Assembly (NCBI GenBank): GCA_946405625.1
Contig: CAMJHQ010000005.1
Span: 62,001-126,000 of the forward strand
Reading direction: 5' to 3'
Source: an uncultured Lachnospiraceae bacterium
Lineage (GTDB): Bacteria; Bacillota; Clostridia; Lachnospirales; Lachnospiraceae
Length of the DNA: 64,000 bases
The translations under genes were made by a program, and so were the position numbers. The notes under the pieces were generated by a model. It was not told the DNA's origin. It searched no databases and saw only the letters and a program-made list of their open reading frames with translations. This document shows positions 46,491 through 46,681 of the stretch, in pieces; within the stretch, counting starts at the first letter, position 1; every line of letters starts with the position of its first letter.

Positions 46491-46541
46491 AAAAAAAAGC
46501 GAAACCCATTTGCAGCCGTTTAAACCACAAATTAGTCTCGC
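46491..46541 (-). terminator. intrinsic terminator of the riboswitch expression platform
   Basis: GCGAGACTAATTTG (46528-46541) pairs with CAAATGGGTTTCGC (46499-46512), followed by TTTTTTTT. The 5' arm overlaps the aptamer P1 3' strand. Confidence 0.8.
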
Positions 46542-46642
46542 TTATTATTCACACTCCGGATCGGCTGTTTCCGATCGTACTGACGAATATGTGACCATGA
46601 TCTGAACCACTGTTCTTAATCACGTTCGCTACTCCCTAACTT
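46529..46642 (-). ncRNA. yybP-ykoY (Mn2+) riboswitch aptamer
   Basis: AAGTTAGGGAGTAGCG ... GGTCACATA ... AAGCGAGACTAATTT, matching the family hallmarks GGGGAGUAGC / GUCAaCAUA / GCRAGACc. P1 pairing AAGTTAG/CTAATTT. Confidence 0.8.
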
Positions 46643-46652
46643 ATATGCCATG

Positions 46653-46681
46653 ATATTATCATAGGCCCATTCCCTTGTCAA
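46653..46681 (-). promoter_or_regulatory. promoter of the riboswitch-DUF3137-lemA unit, TTGACA-N17-TAATAT
   Basis: -35 at 46676-46681, -10 at 46653-46658. Confidence 0.8.

Follow-up and report, generated by a model that had tools for sequence, protein, structure and literature searches.

Among described systems, the one closest to the locus studied here is the yybP-ykoY Mn2+ riboswitch (Rfam RF00080), for which structures from L. lactis and X. oryzae have been solved. Previous work has reported that the L3 loop reads UCA41AU43UC in L. lactis and ACA48U49ACU52 in X. oryzae, that A41 or A48 touches Mn2+ via N7, and that A10 of L1 makes an A-minor contact (PMC6754395). The closest sequence type is the P-type ATPase leader of Streptococcus and Lactococcus (the Mn2+/Ca2+ ATPase switch), and the reference list of PMC10550928 names this Streptococcus switch as Mn-sensing.

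In the present study, we analyzed the leader of a DUF3137-lemA gene pair in a 64,000-nucleotide stretch of DNA (the window), which comes from a genus of rumen bacteria. The leader shares with the yybP-ykoY structures the L1 strands (GGGAGUAGC/GCGAGAC), an 8-nt L3 with an invariant A, and a P1.1 switch helix that overlaps an intrinsic terminator, with ON logic. It differs from them in the absence of P4 (the linker between CGG and GCGAGAC is 14 nt), in a long P2, in not being matched by RF00080, and in controlling DUF3137-lemA. The Streptococcus/Lactococcus leader is alike in its L3 (CGUCANUACG..CCGG), in a UAA-containing linker followed by a GCGAGACU 3' strand, and in the terminator overlap, but it regulates a P-type ATPase and its P2 is mostly shorter. 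The mntP leaders of the window's own genus (L060-L064), which were found both by RF00080 (25-27 bits) and by our model R2 (40-42 bits), are alike in the letters of the L1 strands and the switch helix but have an L3 of the AACAUACU type and control MntP. Collectively, sequence comparison makes it very probable that this RNA acts on transcription as an ON-riboswitch for Mn2+, that it belongs to the yybP-ykoY class, and that it is part of a six-copy regulon that includes envelope genes. The riboswitch belongs to a known class; the envelope regulon is the new part.

Anatomy of the leader upstream of DUF3137-lemA

All features described in this section lie on the minus strand. A first-pass annotation had placed a promoter, a GCGAGAC strand, a P1 helix and a terminator in this leader, and each of them was found in the sequence. 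The promoter (46681-46653) is of the sigma-70 type and, as had been claimed, near consensus (TTGACA-17-TAATAT, with TG ahead of the -10). It is followed by a putative Mn2+ riboswitch aptamer of the yybP-ykoY class, P4-less and with a long P2 (46645-46527), which was recognized by a match to R2 (46645-46526) and by an unconstrained fold. The L1 5' strand (GGGAGUAGC/GGGAGTAGC; 46636-46628) is invariant in alignments A1 and A3; G46629-C46628, at its 3' end, are part of P1.2, and A46633 corresponds to the conserved A-minor adenosine A10 (role per PMC6754395). The L3 loop is GUCAGUAC (46584-46577), or CGTCAGTAC when one more nucleotide is counted (46585-46577), with CGUCA invariant in A1 and A3. 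The UCAGUAC of this loop aligns with UCA41AU43UC of L. lactis and has A46581 in the place of A41; A46581 is the counterpart of the Mn2+-contacting adenosine (A41 in L. lactis, A48 in X. oryzae). Among the aptamer hallmarks first proposed, the L1 5' strand and GCGAGAC held, whereas GTCACATA (46595-46588) belongs to P3.1, as its 5' strand, rather than to L3. The features that define the class were thus present in the window leader, namely an L1 of GGGGAGUAGC and GC(G/A)AGACC with the conserved A10, closed by P1.1 and P1.2; P3.1 and P3.2 flanking L3, with covariation of up to six pair types; and an L3 containing the invariable adenosine.

P1.1 is formed by AAGTTAG (46642-46636) and CTAATTT (46535-46529) with seven of seven pairs, in agreement with the earlier description. 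The L1 3' strand GCGAGAC (46541-46535) doubles as the 5' arm of the intrinsic terminator, which spans 46542-46498, is followed by a T-run to 46491 (8 T), and has a folding energy of -20.9 kcal/mol. This arm contains the 3' strands of both L1 and P1.1, as had been noted for the latter, and GCGAGACTAATTT comprises the bases common to the terminator arm and the closure of the aptamer's first helix. A terminator overlapping the L1 3' strand was found at 98 of the 115 related places located by model R1 (see below), compared with 1 of 58 control stretches. When the aptamer alone (46646-46527) was folded without constraints, a P1.1-P1.2-P2-P3.1-P3.2 arrangement was obtained at -30.8 kcal/mol, with a six-base L1 5' strand, the long P2, and L3 between P3.1 and P3.2. 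In the entire leader, the terminator form was favored by about 15 kcal/mol in terms of secondary-structure energies, and the folding energy was better than that of 200 out of 200 shuffles (z -4.0). The terminator is the default form and stabilization of P1.1 lets transcription through, which is an ON-switch layout.

The identities given earlier for the downstream genes were confirmed. The gene for the DUF3137 membrane protein (45290-46411; PF11335, 2.7e-23) has a TTG start codon at 46411, preceded by AAAGGAGG, and lemA (44714-45265; PF04011, 7.2e-45) lies 24 bp downstream of it. An AlphaFold2 model of the DUF3137 protein had a pLDDT of 82. Its sole solved Foldseek match was the mycobacterial transport factor TtfA (E 5.7e-4, TM 0.56 over the target), a likeness too weak to support a functional assignment. 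Immediately upstream of the leader, a zinc-ribbon protein is encoded (46784-47434, minus strand) that is about 30% identical to the protein of L099 2525-3127, which comes after flotillin under another copy of the switch.

Covariance models and conserved features

Searches with RF00080 at E<=10 did not recover the leader from the window, from the isolated leader sequence or from the complete genome, and none of 99 relatives reached the model's cut-off of 45 bits, which is a database criterion and not a mechanistic one. The few matches to other Rfam families at permissive E (snoRNA, Brucella sRNA, lncRNA) were attributed to chance. The first-pass annotation had named a sub-threshold RF00080 score as evidence against its own assignment. 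This yardstick was faulty because the L. lactis riboswitch, from which a crystal structure was obtained, was likewise not found at E<=0.01; in 14 control genomes, matches at this level occurred only in E. coli, B. subtilis and Caulobacter. In the RF00080 consensus, which centres on a GUCAACAUACU-type L3, neither a P1 helix nor the GCGAGAC strand appears. Within the window's genus, its matches were canonical aptamers, and the downstream frames that were read begin an MntP-like protein. The failure on the window leader thus reflects a limit of the model, since L. lactis was missed and even these canonical aptamers scored only 25-27 bits. Used alone, the RF00080 test would have led to the wrongful rejection of a correct observation. 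As a whole sub-type is missed by the current Rfam model, regulons of this kind are under-annotated.

To obtain an independent model, genome contigs were scanned with a pattern of the core letters, which yielded 80 loci, 79 of them followed by a G(C/T)(G/A)AGAC strand; one of the 80 (L242) was a repeat and not an aptamer. Ten loci from Streptococcus, Lactococcus and other Bacillota each lay directly before a P-type ATPase gene. Model R2 was seeded with 21 elements from outside Lachnospiraceae (Streptococcus, Lactococcus, Burkholderiales, Chloroflexota and others), mainly Streptococcus/Lactococcus P-type ATPase leaders. On the 64-kb window, R2 gave a single match, the leader itself (46645-46526, minus strand; 53.8 bits, E 9.7e-13). 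On the leader's own genome, five of the six copies were matched at E<=2.5e-6 and the sixth at 15.4 bits, and the RF00080-weak mntP leaders of the genus were also detected. The seed loci came from a pattern of the window's family, which fixed the L1 and L3 letters in advance but left the helices, the remaining positions and the gene context free; what R2 adds is therefore evidence from helices, spacing and context. The proposed class and ON layout were supported by the L1 and L3 signatures, the covarying helices, the independent covariance model, and the overlap of P1.1 with the terminator.

RF02617 ('SSRC10, Streptococcus sRNA 10'), a model made by others from Streptococcus, coincided with the element before P-type ATPase genes in L219 (5791-5906) and L222 (3438-3539), with 81 and 42 bits. 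Over the whole genome of the window, its best-scoring place (21.3 bits, E 0.16) coincided with one of the six copies. Judged by these overlaps, RF02617 appears to belong to the Mn2+ riboswitch class and to carry the wrong label.

Across 18 sequences of the genus and 21 from outside it, GGGAGUAGC, CGUCA..AC and CGG were invariant, and the 3' side was GCGAGAC or GCAAGAC; the tally of L3 loop types drew on elements selected for CGUCA. In an anchored count over 119 non-redundant elements, pairing in P1.1, P3.1 (pairs 1 to 3) and P3.2 exceeded that seen after partners were re-dealt, and as many as six pair types occurred; kinship alone may push pair counts above shuffles without structure, and covariation is thus taken as support and not as proof. 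P1.2 likewise covaried; its pair combinations among 139 elements were G-C/C-G (118), A-U/C-G (9), G-C/U-A (6) and A-U/U-A (1). Pairs 4 to 6 of P3.1 had no support in the pooled set, probably owing to a bulge that differs among sub-types. P3 was the only helix that RNAalifold detected on a MAFFT alignment, owing to misalignment of the variable P2, and the anchored pair count was used instead. P4, which gives the solved structures their four-way junction, was absent, as too few nucleotides separate P3.1 from P1.2 to hold it, also in the Streptococcus/Lactococcus elements; the commonest length between CGG and GCGAGAC was 14 nt. P4 was therefore treated as a variable and not a defining part, since it is not general to close relatives. 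At one distant locus before a 144-aa gene (L198; G144:C1:2069175-2069281), a U occupies the position of the Mn2+-contacting adenosine (CGUCUUCUUGG), and this element is possibly a natural variant with another ion preference.

Copies, target genes and the predicted role of the regulon

Model R1, built from the 18 genus sequences, located 115 places in 81 of 296 genomes. The first downstream genes encoded an ABC ATPase with FtsX permease (25), a P-type ATPase (18), DUF3137 (17, one recognized by gene position), a Na/Ca exchanger (15), flotillin (14), an oxaloacetate-decarboxylase beta-like protein (5), Band-7 (2), MntP (2), and GDT1, a Na/H exchanger, CitMHS and AI-2E (one each). Mn2+-homeostasis genes in this group were P-ATPase (18), CaCA (15), MntP (2) and GDT1 (1), with none downstream of the window copy itself. 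The window's genus accounted for 17 DUF3137(-lemA), 13 flotillin, 25 ABC-ATPase/FtsX and 5 Na/Ca exchanger targets. DUF3137 and ABC/FtsX targets were confined to this genus and flotillin and Band-7 occurred in other genera too; beyond it, the aptamer was followed by genes for P-type ATPases, exchangers, MntP and GDT1. The oxaloacetate-decarboxylase beta-like targets (L154, L170, L178, L191, L207, L215) are stand-alone membrane proteins from several genera and a Treponema, hinting at an ion-transport role.

The six copies in the leader's own genome precede DUF3137-lemA (the window copy), a second DUF3137 gene, a flotillin operon, a 338-aa gene, a CaCA exchanger, and an ABC/FtsX pair. The window and flotillin copies match at the DNA level over a stretch (query 10-209) that starts in the promoter region and takes in the aptamer, which suggests that the cassettes were copied whole. 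Upstream of DUF3137-lemA in G032:C127:11046-11218 (L137, L258), there are two aptamer-like units in tandem or with partial overlap (R2 matches 11107-11215 and 11046-11132).

The aptamer was present at 14 of 30 DUF3137 loci in the genus, and lemA came next at all 14; in the same 30 loci, no DUF3137 gene without lemA carried the aptamer. The second DUF3137 copy of the own genome has the aptamer and no adjacent lemA, indicating that lemA is not obligatory. The aptamer-bearing DUF3137 proteins, whose identity to the window protein goes down to about 40%, form one large clade in which some members have no aptamer. Gain or loss of the aptamer on this tree required five changes, and the least forced by well-supported branches was one. 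These sequences indicate that the aptamer-DUF3137 link is old within the genus. The first-pass annotation had reported DUF3137-LemA in place of a metal exporter; this link proved conserved and not accidental, but it is not unique, as one of the six genome copies precedes a CaCA exchanger, a known type of Mn-export transporter. A literature search found no paper linking the yybP-ykoY class with LemA, the word matches looking, by their appearance, like author names; for LemA with metals, only a mention of a copper response turned up.

Based on the L. lactis and X. oryzae structures, we propose the following mechanism. RNA polymerase would start near 46646, and the nascent RNA can, as sequence and comparison show, form P1.1 and P1.2 with the L1 internal loop, the elongated P2, and P3.1-L3-P3.2. 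When Mn2+ is plentiful, the ion would be held between the docked L1 and L3 by A46581 of L3; the aptamer thus held would stabilize P1.1, block the terminator and permit readthrough into DUF3137 and lemA. At low Mn2+, the terminator would win. As a regulon, the six copies would turn on DUF3137-LemA, flotillin, the ABC/FtsX permease and the CaCA-type exporter upon Mn2+ excess, and the membrane proteins among them may protect or remodel membrane and secretion functions in Mn2+ overload. We infer from these comparisons that the ligand is Mn2+, that cells show the ON response, and that DUF3137-LemA has such a role.

The results suggest that Mn2+ excess turns on a membrane-maintenance programme besides metal export. 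He et al. 2023 reported that the Mn exporter MeeF, a TerC protein of B. subtilis, co-purified with HtpX, FtsH and flotillins (PMC10550928). Together with the Geobacterales targets, where the element precedes an M48/HtpX-type protease (L268, L283) or TerC with a LemA gene downstream (L277), this indicated that recurring switch targets match the proteins around membrane Mn export, which is a lead and not a test. That membrane maintenance, through DUF3137-LemA, flotillin and ABC/FtsX and, in Geobacterales, HtpX-type proteases and TerC-LemA, is the main response of a multi-copy Mn2+ regulon is a tentative proposal, to which we give somewhat less than an even chance. If it is true, DUF3137 and LemA would take a working part in Mn2+ handling or in the metalation of exported proteins. 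The conserved putative Mn2+ ON-switch offers a testable physiological cue for these widespread proteins, which are connected to membrane maintenance by the sister copies upstream of flotillin and ABC/FtsX genes.

The same MeeF partners and Geobacterales loci also fit another account, in which the switch senses Mn2+ and DUF3137-LemA serves Mn2+ handling proper, as an export or exoenzyme-metalation accessory, and not general envelope protection. We regard this as a minority possibility, if a serious one, since LemA and DUF3137 are also widespread without the switch and the LemA gene of L277, about 1.4 kb downstream, could have its own promoter. A shifted ligand preference must also be weighed because most genus targets are not recognized metal transporters. 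The copies before DUF3137, flotillin and ABC/FtsX might have kept the fold and switch mechanism and drifted to Mg2+, Ca2+, Cd2+ or Fe2+, in line with the remodelling of P1/P2 in the genus and with the U that the distant copy L198 (G144) has in place of A41; such a drift is unlikely, given that these copies retain the Mn-contacting adenosine and the L3 length, that the genus also has the element before CaCA exchangers, and that its canonical mntP copies have the same L1. An ordinary terminator-attenuator or leader without ligand sensing, its aptamer likeness inherited but decayed, would suit the RF00080 score below any threshold and is highly improbable against core letters that stay invariant while helices covary and against the persistence of 17 copies upstream of DUF3137 proteins whose identity has fallen to about 40%. 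The preferred reading is thus an Mn2+ ON-riboswitch of the yybP-ykoY class.

The mgtE neighbourhood

Downstream of lemA, the gene identified earlier as mgtE was confirmed as such, and the promoter of its own that had been described was seen. Its leader region (44713-44403, minus strand) contains this promoter (44713-44685), a 32-codon leader ORF (MVSGDSHGSDGRAEMFNTADDDHVLIHAHSVC; 44633-44535, minus strand) and an intrinsic terminator (44517-44489, minus strand). This promoter and terminator ruled out mgtE as a shared member of the operon, and mgtE is adjacent only in G025, the closest relative. No Rfam family scored over threshold on the mgtE leader, which is, from its layout, a candidate Mg2+ leader-peptide attenuator. 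The leader ORF has a conserved counterpart in G025; in G032, G008, G019 and G030, part of the leader occurs, also with mgtE in the same locus.
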